DNA from: Yaniella sp.
GTDB lineage: Bacteria > Actinomycetota > Actinomycetes > Actinomycetales > Micrococcaceae
Assembly: GCF_030453185.1 (NCBI RefSeq)
Contig: NZ_JAKDKW010000008.1
Coordinates: 1-51,464, forward strand
Direction of reading: 5' to 3'
Length of the DNA stretch: 51,464 nucleotides
The position numbers and the translations under genes were made by a program. The notes below the pieces were generated by a model that was not told the origin of the DNA, ran no database searches, and saw nothing but the letters and a program-made list of their open reading frames with translations. Positions 2,625 to 42,118 of the stretch are shown here, in pieces. Within the stretch, counting starts at the first letter, position 1; the number at the start of each line of letters is the position of its first letter.

Positions 2625-3998
2625 CTAGAAGCCGCCGTCTGATGGCGCCATGTTGGCAAATCGTGAGTAGTGCCCCTGGAAGGCCAGTTCAATGGTTTTG
2701 GTGGGGCCGTTACGGTGTTTTGCCACGATCAGGTCGGCTTCACCGGCACGCGGGGATTCCTTGTCGTACATGTCCTCACGGTGCAGCAGAATCACCATGT
2801 CGGCGTCCTGTTCAATGGAACCGGATTCACGCAGGTCTGAGACCTGCGGGCGCTTGTCAGTGCGCTGTTCGGAACCACGGTTCAGCTGTGACAGAGCCAC
2901 GACCGGGACTTCGAGCTCTTTGGCCAGCAGTTTCAGTGACCGAGAGAATTCGGAGACTTCCTGCTGGCGGGATTCCACGCGTTTACCCGAGCTCATCAGC
3001 TGCAGGTAGTCCAGTACGACCATTTTCAGGTTGTGCTGTTGCTTCAGACGACGACATTTGGCGCGGATTTCCATCATCGACATGTTTGGAGAATCATCGA
3101 TGAAGAACGGTGCGTCGTTGAGCTTTTGTAGGGTCAAGGCCATTTTGCGCCACTGTCCCTCATCCAGGGTCCCTTTACGCAGGTCCGTCAGCGAGATGGT
3201 GGCTTCTGAAGACAGCAGGCGCATGGCAATCTCAGTTTTCGACATTTCCAAGGAGAAGAATGCGGTAGTCATGCCGTGGCCCACTGCAGCAGCACGAGCG
3301 AAGTCGAGTCCAAGCGTGGATTTACCAACCGCCGGGCGGGCTGCGATGACGACCATTTGTCCACCGTGCAGGCCCTGCGTGAGTTCGTCGAATTCGTCGA
3401 AACCCGACGGGACACCGGACATACCGTCGCCTGTGGTGGAGGCTGCTTCAATTTCGTCAATGGTTTCGGCCAGGATGTCGCCGAGTGCCACGTAGTCTTC
3501 ACCGGAGCGGTTATCTCCGACTTTGTAAATCTCTGCCTGGGCTTCATTGACGATGGCTTCGACTTCGCCGTCGGCGCTGTAACCCATCTGGGAGATTTTG
3601 GCGCCGACGTTGACGATGCGGCGCAGAATAGCCTTCTCAGAAACGATTTCTGCGTAAAAGGAAGCATTCGCGGCAGTTGGTACCGACTGGACCAGAGTGT
3701 GGATGTGCGCAGCTCCCCCGGTCCTGGTGAGTTCTTTTCGCCGATCCAACATCGAGGTGACGGTAATGGCATCCGCTGGCTCACCGGAAGCAAAGAGGTC
3801 GGTGATCGCTGTGTAGACCAGCTCGTGACCTGGAGAATAGAAGTCTTCGGGGCGAATAATTTCTGACACTTCGGCGATGGCATCGGTCGATAACATCATC
3901 GCACCCAGAACAGACCGTTCCGCGTCAAGGTCTTGTGGGGGTGTTCGAGGGTTTGCTGAGACTCCGTTGGCTGTATCCATTGAGTTAAAGTTTGCCAT
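2625..3998 (-). CDS. dnaB: Replicative DNA helicase DnaB
   Basis: Hexameric ring helicase that unwinds the lagging-strand template at the replication fork. The 457-residue protein has the N-terminal DnaB domain (PQDLDAERSVLGAMMLS, residues about 20-120) and a RecA-like C-terminal motor with Walker A ARPAVGKST near residue 220, a Walker B MVVLDYLQLM and a C-terminal LSQLNRGSEQRTDKRP/DLRESGSIEQDAD segment. No intein is present, although actinobacterial dnaB genes sometimes carry one. Start ATG at 3998. The usual actinobacterial order is rpsF-ssb-rpsR-rplI-dnaB; here dnaB is separated from rplI by about 4.7 kb and has a DnaA-box cluster just upstream (4143-4412), which could make its expression DnaA-responsive (inference). 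Confidence 0.97.
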   Translation of the reverse strand: MANFNSMDTANGVSANPRTPPQDLDAERSVLGAMMLSTDAIAEVSEIIRPEDFYSPGHELVYTAITDLFASGEPADAITVTSMLDRRKELTRTGGAAHIHTLVQSVPTAANASFYAEIVSEKAILRRIVNVGAKISQMGYSADGEVEAIVNEAQAEIYKVGDNRSGEDYVALGDILAETIDEIEAASTTGDGMSGVPSGFDEFDELTQGLHGGQMVVIAARPAVGKSTLGLDFARAAAVGHGMTTAFFSLEMSKTEIAMRLLSSEATISLTDLRKGTLDEGQWRKMALTLQKLNDAPFFIDDSPNMSMMEIRAKCRRLKQQHNLKMVVLDYLQLMSSGKRVESRQQEVSEFSRSLKLLAKELEVPVVALSQLNRGSEQRTDKRPQVSDLRESGSIEQDADMVILLHREDMYDKESPRAGEADLIVAKHRNGPTKTIELAFQGHYSRFANMAPSDGGF

Positions 3999-4142
3999 TG
4001 ATATCTAAAAGATGCCCTCCCCTACCCCGGCAGCAGAATGCCAAAACGCGAGCCCGTAGAACGACCGATGCACGCATCATTTTCGTAATGCCAATATCGG
4101 CCGCTACGAGCAAGTACCCTGCGACGATACCCGGCGAATTCC

Positions 4143-4412
4143 TGTGGATCAACTGTCCAAAACTCTTCAATTGTGGATAACCTGTGGATTAAGTTGTGGA
4201 GACTGTGCACAACTTGTGGACCAGGCGTGGATTACTTATGCACAGTATCCACAAACACGGTCTTGACTAGGTCGTTTGCTACTCACAGGCTGTGCATAAC
4301 CTGCGTTCCGCTCCAATTTTTAGTGATTTGACAACCCCGATTTCACGCTGTTTTAACTCTATTCACACCTTCACCACAAGTTATCCACAAGTTATACACA
4401 TGCTGTGGGTAA
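4143..4412. other. DnaA-box cluster upstream of dnaB
   Basis: Within 270 bp there are five exact matches to TTATNCACA: 4172-4180 (minus), 4236-4244 (plus), 4291-4299 (minus), 4381-4389 and 4392-4400 (plus, tandem). One-mismatch boxes lie at 4143-4151, 4183-4191, 4204-4212, 4245-4253, 4369-4377 and 4404-4412. Both orientations occur. This is denser in perfect boxes than the dnaA-dnaN gap, yet lies about 36 kb from dnaA. It could titrate DnaA, regulate dnaB, or be an additional origin element; the sequence alone does not decide. Confidence 0.75.
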
Positions 4413-4656
4413 ACTACACGCATGTCATTCAAGTATTGTTTGGCGTCTTTTCCGGCATGTCGTCATGGTGGGGATTTACGAGTGCAAAGGTTCGGAAAAT
4501 TTCAAGTCGAGCTGATCCCTCCCCGGGCCGTGATCACAACCGTCATGACGGATCGCTTTAAACCGATTTCGGTGGAGGAGAAACACGCTTGATGAAGTAA
4601 TGAAACCTTTCAAAAAGATTGTTCACCGTTTCAATCTGAACACCCCGATGCGTTAA

Positions 4657-20256: not shown

Positions 20257-21408
20257 GTGACCGATTACGAAATTGATACCGATAACTTACTGACCCGCCA
20301 CCGGCAACTAAGTGGTCTGAAAGCGCTGGCGACATCAGCTCAAAAGCTCACCGACCGTAGCTTCGAGCTGTACGGCCCAACGAGTATTGCGGATTTCGCC
20401 AGATGGTTGGGACGCGCTGGCAATCTGGCGGCTAAGCCCCAGTTTGTGCAGGTGGTCCAGGCAAACCAGCAGAACATCATGGCACACGGTGTCTATGGAT
20501 GGTTGCAAATCTTGTTAACCGGCGCGGTCCATCAGTATCGACACGATCTTAATACCCGTGGTCGTGGCGACGATGCCACCTATTTGTCCCGCCAACACGT
20601 CGATGACATTTGCCGTCTCGGTACTCACATAGTGCTGAATTATGGTGCACCTACCGGGCAGAACCGTCGGCTGCTGGGGCATTTCATGTCTGGCAACTAC
20701 GCTCGTCTTGTGGATCTTATACTGCCCAAAGTTGGGGAAGCGCTCGATCAGGAGCTGTCGTCAGACGCTCTTGAACAGGGTGCGAATCCAGTCTTCCGCC
20801 TTCCCCAGCAGGCGTTGCAGATGTCCGTTGTGCATGAACTCGACTTGCGACCGATGGATGCGGACGAACCCTTTGACGACGAGGGTTTTGCCTATTGGCC
20901 CGATGAGATCAAGCAGAACGATGTCTCGACGCTGGATGGCGCCGCGCAGCAAATGATTTACGAGCTGACGATGATCACTCGTGCGATACAAGAAGGCTCC
21001 GCCCCGGCACCCTGGGACAACCCAGCCGTGGTCCGGTCAAGGTTGGAAGCGACCATGGGTATTGCATGGGCGTCACAGTGCTTGGACCCGCACCCTGAGA
21101 TTGCTTCGGATGATCACACAGAAATGTATATCGCTGAACTCGTATCCCGGGTCGAACAGCTGCAGGATCGGGGCATTATCGGAGTGATTTCCTCCGATAT
21201 TTTCCAAACTCGTGAGCTTGTTGAGGAAACCGCCAACGACGACCCGGCTACGGTCATGCTCTACGAACGAGCCCTGCGCCAATCGGTCGACAACGCTGCT
21301 TGGGTAATATTTAACTGGGTGCCAGACTTACAAACCGCAGGATTCCTGGCTCAACTTCTCTTGGACTACCAATTCAATGCGTTCTTCGCTGAGATTGAGA
21401 AGCTCTAA
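20257..21408 (+). CDS. Unrecognised soluble protein, divergent from the ATP-grasp gene
   Basis: I do not recognise a family. With the GTG start at 20257 the protein has 383 residues (VTDYEIDTDNLL...), largely helical and acidic, with no signal peptide or membrane segment. Noticeable strings are YGPTSIADFARWLGRAGNLAAKPQF, written here only in part, GVYGWLQILLTGAVHQY, NRRLLGHFMSGNY and a Trp/Phe-rich C-terminus (WVIFNWVPDLQTAGFLAQLL). ATG at 20227 or 20248 are in-frame alternatives; the open frame also continues upstream to 20131. GTG is preferred because of the TACGAT hexamer 7 nt before it. It is divergent from the ATP-grasp/DUF1801 pair across about 170 bp, which hints at joint regulation. 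Confidence 0.7.
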   Translation: MTDYEIDTDNLLTRHRQLSGLKALATSAQKLTDRSFELYGPTSIADFARWLGRAGNLAAKPQFVQVVQANQQNIMAHGVYGWLQILLTGAVHQYRHDLNTRGRGDDATYLSRQHVDDICRLGTHIVLNYGAPTGQNRRLLGHFMSGNYARLVDLILPKVGEALDQELSSDALEQGANPVFRLPQQALQMSVVHELDLRPMDADEPFDDEGFAYWPDEIKQNDVSTLDGAAQQMIYELTMITRAIQEGSAPAPWDNPAVVRSRLEATMGIAWASQCLDPHPEIASDDHTEMYIAELVSRVEQLQDRGIIGVISSDIFQTRELVEETANDDPATVMLYERALRQSVDNAAWVIFNWVPDLQTAGFLAQLLLDYQFNAFFAEIEKL

Positions 21409-21497
21409 TATGGGCCGGGTATTATCACGCAGCAAATCAGGATGAGCGTGCCGCTAGGGTCTTCGATATTGCAAAACACCTGTTGGCGCACGTCTAA

Positions 21498-22886
21498 TTA
21501 GGCGGCGAGGCGGAGGGTCATGGTCCATTGCGTGCTCTTGGCAAAGCAGTCTGTCGTGGCCCTGACCACGGGTCGGGGTTCTTCCTCGGGTGGTTCCTGC
21601 TTATCGGGCGGCTCCCGTTTATCGGGTGGGATGCCGTCAAGAACTGGACCGGTGTCTTTGGAGTATCTGTGCCCGGTGGGTGTAGTCACCGAAAGGTGTT
21701 CTGGTGTTGCTTGGTGTGTCCACCCGGTGTTTTCTTTGATCTGATTACACCCAGCACACAGCCCGGAAGCATTCTGCCAGCTGGTTGGTCCACCATTCCG
21801 ATACGGGGTGGCATGATCAATATCTTGGATCCGCCCATCACAGTACGGGGTCCGACACGTATCATCTCGTAGCACCACCATGCGTCGTAAACTCGCCGGG
21901 AAGGCCCGCCTGCGGGATTCCATGCCCACCAGTTGGTGATCACCCGGCCGAGCAAAGACCCTTCGCAGGAAAACCTCTGTCTCTGGCATCGCCAACCATC
22001 GTTTGGCCAGCCGGGCTGGGATCGGGCCGTGGCCAGTGACCCAGGCCGGGGTGTCCCCGTCAGCAAACAACGCTTCATCAGTCATCACGACCTGGACTTC
22101 AGCCGGCACCGCTGCTGGGGCATGCCCGTTGACCCGTTGGACAAAAAGATCAGCCATGATCTGACCATGAGAACGCGCCTGGCCGGTGGGATCGGTCGGA
22201 TCAGCCGTCTCGCCAGAGTTGACCACACTATTGGCATCCCTGGTCAGAGTCGCCAGGATCCCTACGGCTTGTTGGGTGGAGACTAACGCTGTCACCCACG
22301 CCATCCCGTACGCCGCGGGACGCACTGTGACCCGGCGCTCTGAATAGGCGATCTCATTGCGCTCAACGGCACCGTGTTGGTCTAACCGTTCAGCATGTGC
22401 CCGAACCTTACCAGCCAGTTTCCGTGGCCCCAGCCCCTCAAACTGACCGGCAATCAGCTCATCCACTGCAGTCCGGTGCTCGGGTGCCAGCCAGGAGACT
22501 TCCTTGACCACAGCCTGGACACGTTCTTCATCAAGTTGGCCAAGAGCCAGGGAATTGAACGTTTTGGGCATGTCCTGGGACAACACTGTGGCCACCTGGA
22601 GGCACCGTGCACCCCGTGCTGGGGACTGACCACGAGCTAATCCGATCTCCGCGGCGAGCCCGTGACCACGCCGGGACCCGGGGACACCGCGGGCGGCTTC
22701 TTCCTCGTGGCGGTGTTGTTCTAGGTCTGCGATTTCCTCGACCTCTAACGCAGCGATCCGAGCCTTTAGCCGTGCCAACGTTTGGAGTCGATCAATGCAT
22801 TGCGCAGAGGAGTCCGAAGGATCCAACATGTCCAGCATGGCACGAGTCTGCGCCATCCGTGCTGCACCTGTCATGGAATTCGTCAT
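21498..22886 (-). CDS. DUF222/HNH endonuclease-domain protein
   Basis: A 462-residue protein of the DUF222-HNH family (the 13E12-repeat type), multicopy in many actinobacteria and often inside mobile regions. The helical DUF222 part covers residues about 40-330 (LARLKARIAALEVEEIADLEQHR; GLARGQSPARGARCLQVA; LAGKVRAHAERLD). The HNH nuclease follows near residue 365: RDDTCRTPYC, DIDHATPYRNGGPTSWQNAS and LCAGCNQIKENTGW, with all four Cys and the HNH His/Asn positions present, so it may be active. A consensus TATAAT stands 6 nt before the ATG, with no Shine-Dalgarno: leaderless geometry. No inverted repeats or integrase accompany it. Confidence 0.88.
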   Translation of the reverse strand: MTNSMTGAARMAQTRAMLDMLDPSDSSAQCIDRLQTLARLKARIAALEVEEIADLEQHRHEEEAARGVPGSRRGHGLAAEIGLARGQSPARGARCLQVATVLSQDMPKTFNSLALGQLDEERVQAVVKEVSWLAPEHRTAVDELIAGQFEGLGPRKLAGKVRAHAERLDQHGAVERNEIAYSERRVTVRPAAYGMAWVTALVSTQQAVGILATLTRDANSVVNSGETADPTDPTGQARSHGQIMADLFVQRVNGHAPAAVPAEVQVVMTDEALFADGDTPAWVTGHGPIPARLAKRWLAMPETEVFLRRVFARPGDHQLVGMESRRRAFPASLRRMVVLRDDTCRTPYCDGRIQDIDHATPYRNGGPTSWQNASGLCAGCNQIKENTGWTHQATPEHLSVTTPTGHRYSKDTGPVLDGIPPDKREPPDKQEPPEEEPRPVVRATTDCFAKSTQWTMTLRLAA

Positions 22887-29596: not shown

Positions 29597-29696
29597 CAAC
29601 AGTGTGACGGTAACGGTGTCAGATCCCAACAGATCACAACGAATACCATAAACTAGACACAGTGCTTCAACATACATCGGTAACAGGGAGGTCTTG

Positions 29697-31415
29697 GTGG
29701 CCAACTTAGACGAAGGCGCGGTACTTGGTGGCCGCTACCAGATCACCGGACGCGTCATGGCATCCTCGCAACAGGACCAGGTACTTAACGGGCTCGATCA
29801 GGTACTCAACCGCGAGGTGCTGATCCTCGTCGCTTCGCGGGAAAATGCATCCCAGGCTGCCCAATCCGCCCGCCAGCTGGCCACCGGTGAACGCGCTAGC
29901 TCCATCCAAATTCTGGATCTGGGCCTGTCCAATGACCGCACCTATTTGGTGGCCCCCGGCAACTCTGACGTCGAGGCCCTCTTGGCCCTGTTGACCAACG
30001 AGGATGTCTACGTTGAACCCTTCTTCACCGAGGCCCTGGGTACCGAATTGTTTGGTGAATCCAGGTCGCACACCCCTCAAACCTTTGACGACGACGCCGA
30101 GTACTACGCCGAACTCCATGATGAGTTGGAAGAAGAACAGGACGAGACCACAAAACGTCCCGAGTTTTTGAATAAACTCTCTGATCGCATCGATAACTGG
30201 CTGCAGGAAGATACCAACGAGACTCCCGTGGCCCCCGGTCGGCCCGATGACACCTCCGGTAAAGCCGGTGCCGGTACCGCCACCGGAATTGGTGCTGCAG
30301 CGGGTGCAGGTGCAGCCGCCGCTAGCGCTTCCAAGCATCGCGACGATGCCGATGAGACTGACGAGTCCACCGACTCCAAGATGGAGCAGACCGAACAGCC
30401 GGAACCAACTCGTTCCAAACTGCCCATTCTAGATGATGAGCCTGACGACGCCGAAGTCGACGAGCCAGTACAGCCTGCGCAACCTCAACAGCCAACGCCT
30501 CCTCAAGTCCCAGTCGAACCTGAACCAGAGGAAGAGACACCTGAGGAGCGCACTCAGATTGTTCCACCGATCACCCAGGAACCAATCACCGAAGGCCAGC
30601 CACGGGTTACCGCTGCCGCTGCACAACAGCCATCCCCAGATCAACCAGCCAACCAGCGCTCCAAGCAACGTGCGGCCCCACTGATTCCACCACCGGCACC
30701 AGACGAGCCCACCGCCGAAGAAGGCTATGCCATCCAGTACACGGATGAGCCCCAGCGCTCAACCCTGGGCCGTTGGCTCGCCGGGCTGTTGCTGATCGCG
30801 GTACTGGTCGGCGCCGTCGTCATTGGTTTCCAATTCTTGGGCTCGCCCGAGGAAGAAGAACAGCCGCCGGTTGCTGAGGAACCATCCGAAGAACCACCGG
30901 CCGAGGAAGAAGAGTCTGAAGAACCCGAAGAGGAGACTGAGGACCTGCCCGCTCCTGTACCGGCATCGGTTGAACGCGTTGTACCGGATGCCCCAGAGCT
31001 GTCCAATGAGTACGAGTCTGACCTGCCGGCGATTGTCGATGGCAACCAAGCCACCGCTTGGCACACCCTCACGTTCACCAGCCCACAATTTGGTGGGTTC
31101 GCCTCTAACCTCGCCCTGGTGGTGGAACTGGAAGAAAAGGCTCCCATTTCTGAAATCTCGATCGCTCAGAACCAGGGCAGCGGAGGCGCATTCACGGTCG
31201 CAGTCTCCAATGAACCGGATCCAACCGGCGGCGTCACGCTCACCGATGGGTCCTTCACCGGCCCCGAGTATACCGTTGACGCACATAATGAGGACGGCGA
31301 GCCCATTGAGGCCCGCTATGTCATCATCAACTTTACCGAGCTACCAACCCTGTCGAACACCAATTCGCCTGACCGACCATACGGCCTACGCATCTCGGAA
31401 ATCGACGTCAATTAG
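29697..31415 (+). CDS. Membrane protein with degenerate kinase-like head and discoidin-like tail
   Basis: A 572-residue bitopic protein. N-terminal residues 1-120 resemble a kinase N-lobe: VLGGRYQITGRVM, LNREVLILVAS, ARQLATGERASSIQILDLGLSNDRTYLVA; but no catalytic loop, DFG or C-lobe follows. Instead comes a long acidic, Pro/Glu/Gln-rich cytoplasmic linker (about 130-350) with an Ala/Gly-rich patch. A membrane helix (WLAGLLLIAVLVGAVVIGFQF, near 365) precedes another acidic Glu/Pro stretch and an extracellular domain (about 420-572: NQATAWHTLTF, PISEISIAQNQGSGGAFTVAV) like the F5/8-type fold of the mycobacterial MviN C-terminus. Position after murJ supports a role in regulating cell-wall synthesis. 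GTG at 29697 follows AGGGAGG by 5 nt. Confidence 0.8.
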   Translation: MANLDEGAVLGGRYQITGRVMASSQQDQVLNGLDQVLNREVLILVASRENASQAAQSARQLATGERASSIQILDLGLSNDRTYLVAPGNSDVEALLALLTNEDVYVEPFFTEALGTELFGESRSHTPQTFDDDAEYYAELHDELEEEQDETTKRPEFLNKLSDRIDNWLQEDTNETPVAPGRPDDTSGKAGAGTATGIGAAAGAGAAAASASKHRDDADETDESTDSKMEQTEQPEPTRSKLPILDDEPDDAEVDEPVQPAQPQQPTPPQVPVEPEPEEETPEERTQIVPPITQEPITEGQPRVTAAAAQQPSPDQPANQRSKQRAAPLIPPPAPDEPTAEEGYAIQYTDEPQRSTLGRWLAGLLLIAVLVGAVVIGFQFLGSPEEEEQPPVAEEPSEEPPAEEEESEEPEEETEDLPAPVPASVERVVPDAPELSNEYESDLPAIVDGNQATAWHTLTFTSPQFGGFASNLALVVELEEKAPISEISIAQNQGSGGAFTVAVSNEPDPTGGVTLTDGSFTGPEYTVDAHNEDGEPIEARYVIINFTELPTLSNTNSPDRPYGLRISEIDVN

Positions 31416-32943: not shown

Positions 32944-34221
32944 CTACTCTGCATCTGAGGACTCACTATTGATAACAGCCATGATCCTGTTCAGGTCATC
33001 GACAGATGCGAAATCGATAGCAATACGGCCTTTCTTAGCGCCCAGGGTAATCTTCACTGAGGTGTCTAGAAGGTCGGTGAGCGACGAAGCCAATTCATCG
33101 AACTGTTGGGTGTTGCGGCGAGTACGGGGTGCAAGCTGACCTGCGTTGTGCATATTACGCAGCATGAGGCTGGCGAGTTCCTCTGTGGCACGTACAGACA
33201 AGCCCTCATTGATTACACGCTGTGCCAATTGCGTCATGAGTGTCTCATCGTTGACCCCAAGGATTGCACGAGCGTGACCCGCTGACAGGACACCAGCAGC
33301 AACCTGACGTTGCACAGCAGGTGGCAGGTTCATGAGTCGAAGCGTATTTGAGATGTGAGGCCGTGAACGCCCTACACGTTTTGACAGGATTTCCTGAGAC
33401 CAACCAAAGTCATTCATCAATTGTTGATAGGCAGCAGCCTCTTCAAGCGCATTGAGTTCACTTCGGTGAATATTCTCGAGAAGTGCGTCACGAAGTAGGT
33501 CCTGGTCGGCGGTGTCGCGAATGATTGCCGGGATGGTGTCGAGACCAGCACGCTTACTGGCTCTCCAGCGGCGTTCACCCATAATGAGCTCATATTTGCC
33601 CTGGCTATCGGTAGGTCGAATGACAATAGGCTGCAGTACACCTACCTCAGCAACTGACGCGACGAGCTCAACCATGGCTTCCTCGTCAAACTCCTCACGA
33701 GGCTGCCGGGGGTTGGGAACGATTGCATCTACTTGGATCTCGTTCAGCAGACTGCCACTGTCAGCAGTAGGGGTGTCCTGTGCCGAGTCATTTACAGCAG
33801 TCTCATCGACTACAGGTTCGTCAGCTACCTGTTCGCCCGACACTTTACGGGGCCGTTCTAATATCGGATTAGGCATCGAGGCACGGCTAACCTTAGAGCG
33901 CGCTGCTGTCGATGCGCTGACAGTATCGTCCCCAAAAAACAAATCAGATGGACGACGGCGCGACTGCGTCGGCTTCACGCCATCGAGATAACGAGATTCC
34001 ACTGCTTTTGCCGGTTCTGATAAATCAACTCGTGGAGCTTCATCTACTATTACTGTATCATCGTTCGCTTTTTCTTCAATCGGAGGAAGTTCGTTTGCTC
34101 CCGTATCCGGGGTTTCATCTGGGCTCTCCTCGAGGGGAGGCTCTTCGTCAGATGTGTTCTGAATTAGAGCTCCAAGGCCTCGTCCCAAGCCACGACGAGA
34201 TTTTTTGGGTTGCTGCGCCAT
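32944..34221 (-). CDS. parB: Chromosome-partitioning CTPase/DNA-binding protein ParB
   Basis: Binds parS, loads as a CTP-dependent sliding clamp and recruits condensin and ParA for origin segregation. About 425 residues, longer than most ParB because of an acidic, low-complexity region between residues 20 and 155. Core motifs follow: IVPNPRQPREEFDEEAMVEL, then IVIRPTDSQGKYELIMGERRWRASK (the GERRxRA CTP-binding motif), ENIHRSELNALEEA, a helix-turn-helix (ILSKRVGRSRPHISNTLRLM) and a C-terminal dimerisation domain with KITLGAKKGRIAIDFAS. GGAGGT is 4 nt before the ATG at 34221. It is the minus-strand gene downstream of a parS array and not directly behind parA. Confidence 0.96.
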   Translation of the reverse strand: MAQQPKKSRRGLGRGLGALIQNTSDEEPPLEESPDETPDTGANELPPIEEKANDDTVIVDEAPRVDLSEPAKAVESRYLDGVKPTQSRRRPSDLFFGDDTVSASTAARSKVSRASMPNPILERPRKVSGEQVADEPVVDETAVNDSAQDTPTADSGSLLNEIQVDAIVPNPRQPREEFDEEAMVELVASVAEVGVLQPIVIRPTDSQGKYELIMGERRWRASKRAGLDTIPAIIRDTADQDLLRDALLENIHRSELNALEEAAAYQQLMNDFGWSQEILSKRVGRSRPHISNTLRLMNLPPAVQRQVAAGVLSAGHARAILGVNDETLMTQLAQRVINEGLSVRATEELASLMLRNMHNAGQLAPRTRRNTQQFDELASSLTDLLDTSVKITLGAKKGRIAIDFASVDDLNRIMAVINSESSDAE

Positions 34222-34289
34222 CAATACCTCCGTTATATTCTTCAAACTCCGACTACGTCCAGCATATCTGTTATTGACGGGATTTGCTG

Positions 34290-34305
34290 TGTTTCACGTG
34301 AAACA
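34290..34305. other. parS site 1 (perfect)
   Basis: TGTTTCACGTGAAACA, 16 of 16 matches to the consensus and fully palindromic. About 70 bp upstream of the parB start, so ParB bound here could repress parB. Confidence 0.95.
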
Positions 34306-34458
34306 CGCGCCGAGTTCTGCCAAGGGCAAGGACTGAATTTCTACCCCGAAACAACTCGTATATCGACATTTGAACACAAACGCGCAGTACCGGTGGCCTA
34401 CATACTGTTCCTTCACAACTGTATGCTTAGATTTGCGAATCTGGGGCGCATACCACGT

Positions 34459-34474
34459 GGTTTCACGTGAAATC
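34459..34474. other. parS site 2
   Basis: GGTTTCACGTGAAATC, 13 of 16 matches; the inner 12 bp are intact. Confidence 0.75.
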
Positions 34475-34694
34475 TGGGGTTCGGGACGATTTTTCGACTT
34501 TTCTATACGTCGTTTCAGGTAAAACGGATAGCTAGCCTGGACTAACCGCGGCAATCATTGCAAGAACGTGGTCGTGCCAAACAGAATCAACAGAATCATT
34601 CAATGTTCTCCGCGATATCAGTCTGGAATCACTAGAACAATCTCATAGATTTGGGGCTCTATCTCGAGTTGTCCTAGGTTAACCATGTCCGGCT

Positions 34695-34710
34695 CGTTTC
34701 ACGTGAAGCC
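34695..34710. other. parS site 3
   Basis: CGTTTCACGTGAAGCC, 13 of 16 matches; the core TTTCACGTGAA is intact. Confidence 0.72.
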
Positions 34711-34822
34711 CTGTGTCGTATCAGTATAGAACCGCATTTAAAAAATACGGTGATCTACCCTCGTTCAGGAAAACCTTGACCGAAATGTATAAAGAACAGC
34801 TGCATTGAGAATGCGACATGCG

Positions 34823-34838
34823 CGTTTCACGTGAAAAT
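34823..34838. other. parS site 4
   Basis: CGTTTCACGTGAAAAT, 13 of 16 matches; the inner 12 bp are intact. Confidence 0.75.
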
Positions 34839-35130
34839 CACGCTGCTTAGCCCTCGGACTTGGGGTTTTGACAACCATCGAGGGTCAAGTTCAGTACAGG
34901 AAGGTCAGAAAATGCCACAATGAGATGCTTTCTCCTCATTTACTCAAAAGCATTATCTACTTCATAGCTATGCGTTCATTTAAGAGGGGGCATTCCGTGA
35001 AGGCTACACGTGAAACCAATACATGTAAACCCGACATGCCAAATACCCAGGCGGTAAATGGTGTCGTATCTAATTTTTCCGAAGTCGCTATTTGCGTCGC
35101 CGATATTTGCATGTAACCAGTGGAGGAGCA

Positions 35131-35146
35131 CGTTTCACGTGAAACG
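35131..35146. other. parS site 5
   Basis: CGTTTCACGTGAAACG, 14 of 16 matches, a perfect 16-bp palindrome. Confidence 0.9.
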
Positions 35147-35281
35147 TGACAACTCTTCAGTGAGCGTTTTCACGGTCACAAATGAGTATTCTACTTTTCA
35201 AGTGAACCGCCCAACACTAAACGAATTTTTCTGGCAATAGGTTTATGAAGCTCACGACCCTCAGGCAAAATATGGGACCAG

Positions 35282-35297
35282 TGTTTCACGTGAAACG
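35282..35297. other. parS site 6
   Basis: TGTTTCACGTGAAACG, 15 of 16 matches. Confidence 0.92.
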
Positions 35298-35466
35298 TCG
35301 TTTTACCGGGCTTAGGTAGTATTCGGCCCTTTCTGTCCAGACACAAAAGCAAGGGTCAGTTATATCAAAGACGATGCGCAGCGCTGCACTTAGTGGACTA
35401 CTGTGGGTACTGTGACCGACTCTAAAACATGAAGTCTCTACTTCGGTGTAGAGTGCTCTAGGCTAC

Positions 35467-35482
35467 CGTTTCACGTGAAACA
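35467..35482. other. parS site 7
   Basis: CGTTTCACGTGAAACA, 15 of 16 matches. Confidence 0.92.
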
Positions 35483-35665
35483 TCGCGCGGTGTCCACGTA
35501 GAAGCGTTCGATGGCCAATATATAGTGTCCACCTTAAAGGTGAAGCACGAGTGGTTGGAGAGAAATCCACGGATCCTAGCCTGCATTGTATGGCTATGCT
35601 GCTCTATTTTTGCCTTTTCAACTCTCATAGCCTCTGAGTTGTGCAAGTAGTGCAACTCGAGAAGA

Positions 35666-35681
35666 CGTTTCACGTGAAACG
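35666..35681. other. parS site 8
   Basis: CGTTTCACGTGAAACG, 14 of 16 matches, a perfect 16-bp palindrome. Confidence 0.9.
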
Positions 35682-35818
35682 ACGGATCAAATCGCTTCCC
35701 AGTCTTGGCAGTGCCTTCGATATTGATAACTCTTGGGCTGAATGCTGAGAACTGTAGTCAATGGCCAAGGCTACCTGAGTCTTCGGATTCCTTTGACAAT
35801 GGCCTCAAAGCCTCGAGT

Positions 35819-35834
35819 GGTTTCACGTGAAACC
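35819..35834. other. parS site 9
   Basis: GGTTTCACGTGAAACC, 14 of 16 matches, a perfect 16-bp palindrome; last strong site, about 230 bp beyond the parA stop. Confidence 0.9.
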
Positions 35835-36065
35835 AGACACGGAACGTTGCCGGAATCGGTCGACAGCTCCGTTACAACATACGCATAGGTTACCCAGCGC
35901 CGCCGTATCTAAGAACGATAGTACGAGGCGAAAGTTACCGCTAATGGATCGAGCAGGTGCCACATAAGACAGCGACCGAGCGAGGGAGTTGGGTAGTCCT
36001 AGCGCATGGCCAAGTCGAGACCTAAAGACACGGTCGGGCTCTAGCGGGACCAACTTCGCTGCTGG

Positions 36066-37013
36066 CTATTGTGTCGTGCCTCGCGAAGCAATCTCCATCG
36101 CAGCTTCACGGTAGCTCAGCGCACCCGTCGAACTTGGGTCATAAGTTAGGACACTCTGCTGATATGAGGGCGCTTCAGAAATCCGAACGTTCCTCGGGAT
36201 GACAGCCTGTAATACTTGCTGCGGAAAGTAATCACGAACCTCTTCCGCGACTTGAACAGCCAAATTGGTTCGCGAGTCATACATCGTGAGAAGGATAGTT
36301 GAAATATGCAAGGCAGGATTCAGGTGCTCCTGGATCATCTCAATATTCTTCACGAGTTGAGATAGCCCCTCAAGAGCATAATATTCAGTCTGGATCGGAA
36401 TAAGAACTTCATTCGCTGCAACGAAAGCGTTAACGGTTAATAAACCTAAACTCGGTGGGCAATCGATGAACACATAATCAATGCGAGGAAGACCAATTTC
36501 TTCGCGGTATTCAAAGTACCGTTCCAGGGCACGGGATAGGCGCTGCTCGCGTGCGACCAATGAAACCAGCTCAATCTCGGCACCCGCCAGATCGATCGTT
36601 GACGGAGCCACCAGGAGGCCATCCGTATCCGGATTTTCGTAGAGTACGTCTTTCAGGTCGTAGTCCTCGATGAGAACGTTGTAGATCGAGGGGACCCCTT
36701 GATGGTGGTCTATGTTCAAGGCTGTTGACGCGTTGCCCTGAGGGTCTGTATCAATTACCAGAACGTTCATGCCGGCTCGAGCCATTGCAGTAGAGACGTT
36801 GACTGTCGTCGTAGTTTTCCCGACGCCACCCTTTTGGTTAGAAATTGTGATGATGCGGGTGTGCTCAGGTTTCGGCATGCGCTTAGTTTTTAGCTTCTCG
36901 CGTCGACGTTTTTCGGACTCCAACTGTCGGGCAAGCGGTGTCGAAGCAGCGCTATTCGTAGTCTGCGCAGTTTCACCTGAAACATTGTCCTTGTCGACCA
37001 AGCCAGCCTCCAT
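36066..37013 (-). CDS. parA: Chromosome-partitioning ATPase ParA (Soj-like)
   Basis: Deviant Walker ATPase that binds DNA non-specifically and pulls ParB-parS complexes apart. The 315-residue protein has a charged N-terminal extension (about 50 residues), Walker A ITISNQKGGVGKTTTTVNVS near residue 55-75, the A' motif VLVIDTDPQGNAST, and YVFIDCPPSLGLLTVNAF. ATG at 37013 has no good Shine-Dalgarno. A near-parS sequence (36969-36984) lies within its N-terminal codons. It follows rsmG by 34 bp, so it probably belongs to the rnpA-yidD-yidC-jag-rsmG-parA transcript, whereas parB is 1.8 kb further on. Confidence 0.96.
   Translation of the reverse strand: MEAGLVDKDNVSGETAQTTNSAASTPLARQLESEKRRREKLKTKRMPKPEHTRIITISNQKGGVGKTTTTVNVSTAMARAGMNVLVIDTDPQGNASTALNIDHHQGVPSIYNVLIEDYDLKDVLYENPDTDGLLVAPSTIDLAGAEIELVSLVAREQRLSRALERYFEYREEIGLPRIDYVFIDCPPSLGLLTVNAFVAANEVLIPIQTEYYALEGLSQLVKNIEMIQEHLNPALHISTILLTMYDSRTNLAVQVAEEVRDYFPQQVLQAVIPRNVRISEAPSYQQSVLTYDPSSTGALSYREAAMEIASRGTTQ
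36969..36984. other. Near-parS site inside parA
   Basis: AGTTTCACCTGAAACA: 14 of 16 matches to parS, but one mismatch breaks the central CACGTG. It lies in the parA N-terminal extension. Confidence 0.5.
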
Positions 37014-37047
37014 TACTTTAAAATTGAAGTAATTATTTTCCTACAAT

Positions 37048-37728
37048 TTAGGAACCATACGTAAGTCTTACAACAGTAGTGGCAACTGCCAAGAGTTCGT
37101 CACCGACCGTTAGAACTTCCGAGTTCTTCGTTTTGAATTTACGTAAAACTTTATCTGCCTTTTCAATTTCATTGGCAGCGCTTTTGCCTTTAATAGCCAG
37201 CAATTCACCTGTACCGTGCAACAACGGGACAGTCATCGGCACCAGGGATTTCATCGCGGACACAGCACGCGCGGTCACTATGTCCACGTCTACTGTCTCA
37301 AAGACCTGCTCGGAACGGGCGCGTACAACATCCACGTTTTCAAGCTCGAGATCTGCGATCACCATTTCTAACCAATCAACGCGTCGTTCCAGTGGCTCAA
37401 TCAGAACGAACTGGACGTCGGGCCGTGCGATGGCCAAAGCGATACCTGGTAAGCCCGCACCTGATCCAACGTCGGCGACAAGGGCACCCTTTGGCAACAG
37501 CTCTTGGACCACCGCACAGTTGAGAACGTGGCGATCCCACATCTTCGGAATTTCGCGTGGCCCAAGCAGGCCCCATTCGATGCCCGTGGTTACAAGGTGA
37601 TGTACGAACCGTTCGGCGACGTCTGTACGGTCTCCGTACAGCACCTCAACGGCGTCAACGACCCAGGATTCTTGACGAGCAAGTTCGGCGTCTGATGGGT
37701 CTGCCTCAGGGATAGGATTGTCAGTCAA
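37048..37728 (-). CDS. rsmG: 16S rRNA (guanine-N7)-methyltransferase RsmG
   Basis: SAM-dependent enzyme methylating G527 of 16S rRNA (E. coli numbering); its loss gives low-level streptomycin resistance. 226 residues. The SAM motif VADVGSGAGLPGIALAIARPD is near residue 90, preceded by the family segment MWDRHVLNCAVVQELL and followed by FVLIEPLERRVDWLEMV and DIVTARAVSAMKSLV. TTG at 37728 follows a GGAG that overlaps the jag stop region. Standard position between jag and parA. Confidence 0.95.
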   Translation of the reverse strand: MTDNPIPEADPSDAELARQESWVVDAVEVLYGDRTDVAERFVHHLVTTGIEWGLLGPREIPKMWDRHVLNCAVVQELLPKGALVADVGSGAGLPGIALAIARPDVQFVLIEPLERRVDWLEMVIADLELENVDVVRARSEQVFETVDVDIVTARAVSAMKSLVPMTVPLLHGTGELLAIKGKSAANEIEKADKVLRKFKTKNSEVLTVGDELLAVATTVVRLTYGS

Positions 37729-40175: not shown

Positions 40176-40597
40176 TGTTATTTCTCCACACTCAGTCAGA
40201 CGCAGAAGCATACTTTGGGAAGTGCGTCTCAAACTGCGTTAGCCCAAAAAACTTCGGCGATATTAGTTCATTATCTGTTCATGCTTTCCCGGTGTGTGCG
40301 AAAAAATGGCACGCCTCATCCCGGGCAAGACTCAACAAGTCTATGAACAGCAGTCGCTTTGGTCAAATTGAGGTGAAGTTTTCAGTTATTCTAAACACCG
40401 GTCTGTGTATAAGCTGTGCATAACCCTCTCAGCCCTGTGGAGATTAAGGCTAAGGTTGGGGAGGCCGGACTGTAGAACGTTGAAAACTCAACGTAACTGG
40501 ACCGGGGCTTGTGGATAATGCGTGCGTAAAGATATTGCCGACCTGCTGCGTAGAACGCATCAGCAGTACGGGAATCGTGAAGTGGGGTTTTGAGCGG
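40176..40597. promoter_or_regulatory. rpmH-dnaA divergent promoter region with DnaA boxes
   Basis: About 420 bp. It has three exact DnaA boxes in minus orientation: TGTGTATAA at 40404-40412, TGTGCATAA at 40415-40423 (2 bp apart) and TGTGGATAA at 40510-40518. These lie upstream of dnaA and fit autoregulation by DnaA. Individual -35/-10 elements are not assigned. Confidence 0.8.
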
Positions 40598-42118
40598 ATG
40601 AGTGTTAGCGAATCGATCATCAATTCGTGGGAACGAGTTGTTGAGAAAGTGCGCGCCTCTGGTGACGTAGGCCTTAGTCAGATGGGCTTTTTGGACCTCG
40701 CGCACCCGCAGGGGCTCATTGCTAATACTCTGTTGTTGGCAGTCCCAAATGAGTTGACCCGCGACATCTTGGAAAACCGTTTACACGAGTATTTAGCTGA
40801 TGCGCTGACCGAAGTTTTTGGCACTGATATCAATTGTGCTTATTCGATCGATACCAACCTCCATGCCACGACCCCGGAAATTCCGACCTCACCCAAACGA
40901 TCCACACCGGAAACACGCTTTGTGGATAATGTTGTGGATATTTCAGAGGCATCCCAGGCACCAGCGGAAGAATCAGGAACTGATGAACCGCTCATGGATG
41001 ATCTCTTTAGCTCCCAAACCAACCCGGCTGCCGCGCCCTATGGTGGCCCCCAGCTAACGGTTTCACCACATTCAGGTGAACGCTCGCGACTCAATGAGCA
41101 TTATCACTTCGATAATTTCATCACTGGTTCATCAAACCGTTTTGCTCATGCTGCCGCTTATGCTGTTTCTGAACAACCTGCGAAGTCATACAACCCGCTC
41201 TTTATCTACGGGGAATCAGGACTGGGCAAAACCCACCTGTTACATGCCATTGGTCACTATGCGCAAGAACTCTTTCCAGGTCTACGCGTTCGGTATGTCA
41301 ATTCAGAAGAATTCACCAATGACTTCATTAACTCAATCCGTCATGATGAGGGTGCCTCTTTCAAGCAGATCTACCGCAACGTGGATATCTTGCTCATTGA
41401 CGACATCCAGTTCATGGCGAATAAAGAAGCGACCGTTGAAGAGTTCTTCCACACCTTCAATGCACTATATAACAACCATAAGCAAGTTGTTATCACCTCG
41501 GACCTTCCGCCAAAACAGCTTTCTGGCTTCGAGGAACGTCTGCGCTCCCGTTTCGAATGGGGGCTCACCACGGATATTCAGCCACCAGATCTTGAAACAC
41601 GCATCGCTATTCTGGCCAAGAAGGCTGATGCAGAACGCATTACGGTGCCTAAAGACGCCCTGGAATACATTGCGTCACGGATCGATACCAATATTCGTGA
41701 ACTTGAAGGTGCGCTGACTCGCGTCACAGCATATGCGTCGTTGAATAATGAGCCGATCAATCTTGACCAGGCTCAGTACATTCTCAAGGATCTGATTACT
41801 GACGACGATGCGCAAGAGATCACCTCGGATCTGATCATGGACGAAACCGCGAACTACTTTGGTTTCACCCTTGCTGATCTGCAGTCGAAGTCTCGTACCC
41901 GGACGCTTGTCACGGCCCGACAGATTGCTATGTACCTGTTGCGTGAACTCACCGAGATGTCTTTGCCACGAATCGGCGCCGAATTTGGCGGACGTGACCA
42001 CACCACCGTGATGCATGCTGATCGTAAAATCCGAGATTTGATGAGCCAACGGCATGCGATTTACAACCAAGTCACGGAGCTCACGAACAAAATTAAGCAA
42101 CGGGCACGCAACGTCTAA
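40598..42118 (+). CDS. dnaA: Chromosomal replication initiator DnaA
   Basis: AAA+ initiator that binds DnaA boxes and melts oriC. 506 residues with ATG at 40598 (MSVSESIINSW); the frame stays open upstream but lacks support. Domain I is residues 1-90, followed by an acidic, Pro-rich domain II linker (about 90-165). Domain III begins at HYHFDNFITGSSNRFAHAAA, with Walker A GESGLGKTHLLHAIGHY near 205, Walker B ILLIDDIQFM near 265 and a sensor region (ITSDLPPKQL; RLRSRFEWGL). Domain IV ends with the DnaA signature FGGRDHTTVMHADRKI near residue 463. Three DnaA boxes upstream suggest autoregulation. Confidence 0.98.
   Translation: MSVSESIINSWERVVEKVRASGDVGLSQMGFLDLAHPQGLIANTLLLAVPNELTRDILENRLHEYLADALTEVFGTDINCAYSIDTNLHATTPEIPTSPKRSTPETRFVDNVVDISEASQAPAEESGTDEPLMDDLFSSQTNPAAAPYGGPQLTVSPHSGERSRLNEHYHFDNFITGSSNRFAHAAAYAVSEQPAKSYNPLFIYGESGLGKTHLLHAIGHYAQELFPGLRVRYVNSEEFTNDFINSIRHDEGASFKQIYRNVDILLIDDIQFMANKEATVEEFFHTFNALYNNHKQVVITSDLPPKQLSGFEERLRSRFEWGLTTDIQPPDLETRIAILAKKADAERITVPKDALEYIASRIDTNIRELEGALTRVTAYASLNNEPINLDQAQYILKDLITDDDAQEITSDLIMDETANYFGFTLADLQSKSRTRTLVTARQIAMYLLRELTEMSLPRIGAEFGGRDHTTVMHADRKIRDLMSQRHAIYNQVTELTNKIKQRARNV

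Follow-up and report, generated by a model that had tools for sequence, protein, structure and literature searches.

A compact, non-coding array of parS sites lies between parB and parA in Yaniella sp. and recurs across its genus

Nine parS sites lie within 1.5 kb of non-coding DNA between parB and parA in a contig of Yaniella sp. The field is probably the chromosomal centromere, the parS cluster of a ParABS system set in a gene-free stretch between the two genes. Sites and layout are conserved in related genomes, and the DNA between the sites can hardly be aligned among species. An earlier note on this DNA had read the field as a compact centromere, which is kept here as the best reading on the strength of sites, layout and conservation, all known from sequence.

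The window is the whole stretch of DNA analysed, 51,464 nucleotides, and is a single contig of a draft genome (G000; 156 contigs, 97% complete). Its gene order is trxB, parB, the array, parA, rsmG, jag, yidC, rnpA, dnaA, dnaN, recF, gyrB and gyrA, with jag called at a score under the curated cut-off. The position of dnaA is presumed to mark the oriC region. An open reading frame of 573 aa at 29694–31415, beside murJ, has no Pfam match and a weak NCBIfam match below cut-off. parS sites were scored against the 14-mer GTTTCACGTGAAAC, and matches with at most one mismatch were counted as sites. The features are as follows.

32944..34221, minus strand: parB, 425 aa, ATG at 34221
34222..36065: non-coding field with the parS array, separating parB from parA
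34227..34231, minus strand: GGAGG, likely parB ribosome binding site
34261..34266, minus strand: TATGCT, possible −10 element of a parB promoter, identical in G000, G001 and G002
34291..34304: parS 1, perfect 14-mer, 70 bp upstream of parB
34460..34473: parS 2, one mismatch
34512..34525: parS-like, two mismatches, probably not functional
34696..34709: parS 3, one mismatch
34824..34837: parS 4, one mismatch
35003..35016: weak parS-like site, two mismatches of 14 (12 of 16 as 35002–35017)
35132..35145: parS 5, perfect
35283..35296: parS 6, perfect
35468..35481: parS 7, perfect
35667..35680: parS 8, perfect
35820..35833: parS 9, perfect
36066..37013, minus strand: parA, 315 aa, ParA-family ATPase
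36970..36983: extra parS-like site in the 5′ end of parA, one mismatch
40511..42118, plus strand: dnaA, 4.7 kb past the last array parS

Nine sites with an intact TTTCACGTGAA core were found between 34291 and 35833, where shuffled sequences average 0.01 matches; six of them match the full 14-mer, and the other three deviate from it at one position. These and the 12-of-16 site at 35002–35017 are the sites that the earlier note had listed, and all are present. The whole draft genome holds ten matches with at most one mismatch, nine of them in the one field of 1.54 kb near dnaA, and a reversed control pattern gives one match at the same threshold. The only site outside the gap lies in the 5′ end of parA; it is found with at most one mismatch in five of seven genus loci and is perfect in G003 and G008.

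ParB has an N-terminal GLGRGLGALI motif, a long linker, and ParB_N, HTH_ParB and ParB_C domains with a GERR motif, and aligned with solved Spo0J (6sdk) and ParB (6t1f) chains over the GERR and HTH regions. From these domains and motifs it would be a CTP-dependent clamp, with CTP use predicted from its family. ParA matches NCBIfam ParA-family models (best E 7e-30, under that model's curated equivalog cut-off). The locus thus has the parts of a chromosomal ParABS system: a ParA-family Walker ATPase, a ParB with ParB_N, HTH and C-terminal dimerisation domains, and parS near the presumed oriC. Adjacency of parA and parB, which is usual for such systems and not strictly defining, is replaced by the 1,844-bp gap, and translational coupling of parB to parA is unlikely in this genus.

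SMC scored over the family cut-off in five of nine genus genomes and had no such match in G000 (the window's assembly), G001, G008 or the 71%-complete G007; ScpA is present in G000. The smc stretch of G002 (L266), which is flanked by a UDP-GlcNAc 2-epimerase and an MFS gene, had no match in G000, G001 or G008 when used as a DNA query in a search run without a positive control. The missing SMC match reflects either an assembly gap or a real loss.

The gap has a GC content of 0.48 and is non-coding, as the earlier note had held for its 1.84 kb. Its period-3 signal is 0.8 (null 1), compared with 6.9 in parA and 7.3 in parB. A gene or pseudogene was rejected on this absence of coding periodicity and of any frame of at least 100 codons; the genus relatives also have short frames only. 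Five arrays of g1, the window's genus, and g2 gave a GC period-3 power of 0.5–1.6 (null 1). In a survey of up to four loci in each of 17 genera, the power of parS fields was below 3 in 54 of 59 values, against 4.7–45 in parA. The fields above 3 are those of G095, which carries an IS481-type transposase, G067, G020, G078 and G120, and they may hold genes. An Rfam scan of the gap at the gathering score gave no match. Apart from parS copies, no direct repeats of at least 16 nt were found, and the only tandem arrays are two of 19 bp each with 9-bp units. The spacers are thus not copies of one unit, as they would be in a tandem-repeat plasmid centromere. Capture of the spacer DNA from elsewhere was rejected, as the genome holds no second copy beyond pieces of at most 28 bp. 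A second conserved spacer motif was sought by k-mer counts across genus genomes, which equalled the null except for one 8-mer, found in six of seven genomes with 0.07 expected.

The layout was followed through the genus, family and order. The window's genus (code g1) is Yaniella/Enteractinococcus in the Micrococcaceae, and the group sampled spans Yaniella halotolerans, two Candidatus Yaniella MAGs, a Micrococcaceae MAG and two Enteractinococcus species. ParB was matched in eight of nine genomes, the ninth being the 71%-complete G007. parA and parB share a contig in seven genomes, all of which retain both split and array, with gaps of 1,684–3,403 bp and 6–10 sites; in G004 a contig ends between the genes and six sites lie on the parB side. 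Because the layout recurs in seven of seven genomes, including the single-contig G005, the assembly error that the earlier note had allowed for is unlikely.

The family survey covered 136 loci, of which 133 have both genes (not G004, G070 and G072), and was made without G007, G132, four g28 genomes and the later G164–G168. The parA–parB gap exceeds 800 bp in 40 of the 133 loci, measures 400–800 bp in three and is below 400 bp in 90. At least three parS occupy 38 of the 40 long gaps, in 11 genera, in some of which only part of the members have the split. In many loci with a gap below 400 bp, a gene-poor field of parS instead follows parB, with up to 13 sites in one locus. Such gene-poor fields, of about 0.9–5 kb, are kept in many genera, and the stretch fetched for each family locus holds a median of seven parS (range 3–15). 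In genera with parS after parB (g16, g20, g22, g23 and g52 among others), the nearest site is often about 40–60 bp past the matched ParB end; in g22 it is 47–54 bp past it in all seven loci.

Outside the family but within the order, the loci of 21 out of 22 sampled genomes were examined, and all 21 have a gap of −10 to 410 bp. In three of these loci (L086, L088 and L100, in G038, G047 and G048), 5–7 parS are spread over 1.3–2.6 kb between parA and rsmG, in DNA that has little coding periodicity. Where the array sits relative to parAB seems to vary from family to family. The earlier note had called both the split and the concentrated array unusual. Within the order the split is, as no other-family gap exceeds 410 bp; loci of the family, by contrast, as a rule have their parS clustered near parAB. 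On a tree of 81 of the 133 loci (at most three per genus except g1), the between-genes state needs six changes, at least four of them forced by well-supported branches; the tree is unrooted, so gain and loss are not distinguishable. The split is no recent accident, since it occurs in 11 genera and changed state at least four times.

Spacings between the nine sites are 169, 236, 128, 308, 151, 185, 199 and 153 bp, more even than random placement (P = 0.0013 by CV, P = 0.0005 by minimum spacing). The 308-bp spacing splits into 179 and 129 bp only when the weak site is counted, and with this site, chosen after the fact, evenness reaches P = 4e-5 (CV). Across seven g1 genomes the Fisher P is about 1e-6, driven by the five with P < 0.05. 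G005 and G006, with gaps of 2.9 and 3.4 kb, show no even spacing (P = 0.67 and 0.72), and spacings reach 1.2–1.36 kb in these two longest-gap species. The even spacing claimed earlier thus holds for five of seven genus members, the window among them, but not for the two longest-gap members, nor for the 308-bp interval without the weak site. Helical phasing was not convincing (top Rayleigh z 3.5 over 16 periods and five groupings). G095 (L132) carries an insertion of about 1.1 kb between two parS, at about 3340–4430, with an IS481-type transposase gene (Pfam rve, LZ_Tnp_IS481); its near relative G166 shares the four sites but not the insertion. Spacing is not strict, because evenness fails in the two longest-gap species and the G095 array carries this insertion.

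The letters between the sites change fast, a feature that the earlier note had no means of seeing. Between the window species and its two nearest relatives, ParA is 96–97% identical and global spacer identity is 0.41–0.43, compared with 0.41–0.42 for shuffled sequence. Only the parB leader of about 70 bp aligns among these three species, at about 72%, and fourfold sites of six neighbouring genes differ by 0.39–0.44. Of 80 within-genus pairs from eight genera, 75 have a spacer identity that differs by no more than 0.05 from that of one shuffle; the exceptions are G019/G093 (0.60), G028/G117 (0.51), G114/G131, G011/G126 and, barely, G126/G142. In g15, over about 1.5 kb beside parA, 44 of 45 pairs have an identity of 0.425–0.478.

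Other DNA nearby is better kept. All 36 control intergenic stretches (identity 0.59–1.00) lie above the array of the same pair (0.42–0.60); they measure 150–2500 bp, come from the 10 of the 80 pairs with the dnaA side fetched, and are in some cases not purely intergenic, possibly including gene ends past the matched part. The rnpA–dnaA stretch presumably contains rpmH, judging by gene order. Against G002, one of 12 other window intervals (21406–21593, bounded by a poorly matched frame) is at the shuffled level. Some long intervals compared with G005, G006 and G008 are too, and contain window frames with unmatched orthologs.

Fast change goes with parS in either position. The alignable share is 0–0.06 in 17 of 18 close pairs of gap arrays (0.19 in the other, G019/G093) and in 12 of 13 close pairs of downstream fields from g7, g8, g16, g20, g23 and g53 (0.26 in the other), in a measure that falls to about zero at 45% divergence in simulation and so is alone no proof of saturation. 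In G076/G116, with a parA fourfold difference of 0.15, 26% of the downstream field still aligned. parA is covered at 0.96–1.00 among the 37 closest pairs, which include these. Short parS-free parA–parB gaps align in full in five of seven pairs with a value (four in g22, one in g23); two in g16 do not, against the trend. Unalignable DNA goes with parS, whether in the gap or downstream of parB.

The strongest alternative is that the field is ordinary intergenic DNA with parS, in which the spacers are neutral and merely long, and their fast change reflects constraint on the other intergenic DNA and on fourfold sites. No further motif is convincingly conserved in the spacers, and the intergenic controls, near oriC and with promoters and some gene ends, are constrained. 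In the nearest pair, G095/G166 (identity 0.79, depressed by the IS481-type insertion), the spacers differ at 87 of 1977 positions, compared with 6 of 409 fourfold sites in jag, rsmG and parA (P = 0.003), a 3-fold ratio that might stem from codon-use constraint; third-position GC of parA is 0.94–0.97 in two other members of that genus. However, simulated spacers (three replicates per rate) kept more identity than was observed. For G022/G115, whose fourfold difference is 0.24 for parA and rises to 0.38 when parB is included, simulation at 0.24 gave 66–76% identity with 50–99% of the length alignable, and at 0.35 gave 56–65% with 4–84%, compared with 45% and 0 observed. Bacteria tend to lose useless DNA, and the retention of gene-poor parS fields in many genera speaks against spacers that are merely long.

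The lengths kept by G028/G117 also oppose this alternative. The pair has six orthologous sites with positions that differ by at most 20 bp, and spacer lengths of 106/102, 339/325, 548/571, 135/149 and 422/408 bp, within about 10%. These spacers are 44–53% identical compared with shuffled means of 43–45%, nearly saturated; in three of the five the identity slightly exceeds the top value of five shuffles, which leaves some trace of similarity. Length conservation at saturated sequence is known mainly from this one pair. Retention of sites with turnover of spacers suggests that what matters for the working of the stretch is its sites and its length, not the remaining letters. Plain neutrality might account for the turnover, and ordinary intergenic DNA remains a serious if somewhat doubtful account of the field.

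Another explanation is local hypermutation or a recombination hotspot, in which loading of ParB and SMC would make the field and its flanks mutate faster. In comparisons with three relatives, few or no window genes diverge more at fourfold sites than parA and parB, and this divergence falls via rsmG and jag to yidC. parB, parA and rsmG (32944–37728) are among the highest of 31 window genes against G002. In G095/G166, parB core fourfold sites differ at 9 of 169 positions, compared with the 6 of 409 in jag, rsmG and parA (P = 0.017). However, the parA/rsmG ratio is 0.92–1.13 across 24 genera, most of them near saturation, irrespective of whether the array separates the genes or follows them. In 21 of the 24, jag has a lower value than rsmG, and gene-specific constraint explains the order equally well. 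A mutation gradient centred on the array was thus suggestive in one genus and unsupported across genera, most of which are near saturation; a hotspot is unlikely.

The sites could instead be mainly operators that control expression of parB, and perhaps parA. The conserved parB leader includes the GGAGG, and the first parS is 69–77 bp from parB in all eight genus genomes with parB. This distance is genus-specific elsewhere too (45–49 bp in seven of seven g4 loci, 109–112 bp in five of six g13 loci), and the first parS is close to −10-like elements seen by eye. In Pseudomonas aeruginosa, ParB is reported to repress at the intergenic parS3/4 (PMC7022226). But such control would explain one site and not nine, and the distance is loose in g15 (98–244 bp) and g21 (113–255 bp). 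A consensus scan found no parB promoter and did not report TATGCT at 34261..34266; the region has one promoter-like match, fewer than the 2.4 in shuffles. Operators as the main role are very improbable. As a part of the centromere, the leader parS beside a possible −10 element, about 70 bp upstream of parB, suggests that ParB probably tunes its own promoter. That a lost gene or mobile element split parA from parB and left remains in which parS accumulated is scarcely credible: the genes are close in other families and one array (G095) has an IS481-type element, but the gap shows neither coding periodicity nor a second copy in the genome, the spacers do not align among species, and the split with at least three parS recurs in 11 genera with repeated state changes.

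In the centromere reading, each parS would be an entry point at which ParB dimers bind and load with CTP; they would then shut into clamps and slide off along the spacers. With nine such entry points in 1.5 kb, ParB would form a dense patch that ParA would move and that would condense the origin. The spacers would be a track for sliding clamps, with sites, rough spacing and length kept and other letters hardly mattering; only spacer length would count, because clamps would diffuse on any DNA. A gene-free field would also limit collisions of clamps with RNA polymerase. In vitro, ParB is described as condensing DNA with 7, 13 or 26 parS and not with 1, 2 or 4, and more parS are expected to load more clamps (PMC8299390). 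These data make it plausible that the array loads many ParB clamps at once, and nine sites within 1.5 kb would be a strong loading zone. A need for nine sites is unproven, because a single parS is reported to be enough for segregation in Corynebacterium glutamicum (PMC7083940).

A broader and more tentative proposal, possible but not favoured, is that the Micrococcaceae field may be a bacterial counterpart of the fast-changing eukaryotic centromere, relocatable and gene-free. Selection would act only on parS letters, approximate positions and total length, the spacers would outpace fourfold sites and all compared neighbouring intergenic stretches, and the DNA would serve as a sliding track by length alone. 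If spacer length and not sequence is selected, these loci would be a natural test of the ParB sliding-clamp model, with letters randomised and sites kept. The many natural arrays with differing spacings could be used to measure the effect of site number and free DNA on ParB loading and origin condensation. They would also show, in bacteria, a centromere that keeps its function while its DNA is not conserved.

Multi-site arrays beside par genes are known from the F plasmid, where sopC has many ParB sites in a short tandem repeat of near-identical units; the units of the window share only parS. The downstream parS fields of other Micrococcaceae are alike in being mostly non-coding, about 1–5 kb long, with up to 13 sites and sequence that is not kept, and differ in lying after parB with parA and parB close together. 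In general, par operons and most parS are described as lying in the ori domain (PMC7022226). C. glutamicum is reported to have ten parS (parS1-10), Bacillus-like sites with a 16-bp consensus, in one cluster, nine of them intergenic; the cluster is 35 kb wide and 73 kb from oriC, and SMC enrichment there depends on ParB and parS (PMC7083940). As in the window, this is an actinobacterial ParABS system with clustered consensus sites near oriC, but its sites spread over 35 kb, whereas those of the window occupy 1.5 kb in the parA–parB gap, 4.7 kb from dnaA. In Myxococcus xanthus, a cluster of 22 parS is described close to parAB; it covers about 3 kb and lies about 4 kb upstream of parA (PMC3899335). 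The window, with nine sites in 1.54 kb, is likewise a compact cluster of many parS in a few kilobases near parAB; the M. xanthus cluster is upstream of parA, whereas the window array is between parA and parB. A literature search in which subscription papers were thinly covered returned no description of a parA–array–parB layout in the Micrococcaceae or of hypervariable parS spacers. Compact parS clusters are thus already known from Myxococcus and Corynebacterium, and the parA–array–parB layout with sequence-free spacers looks new.
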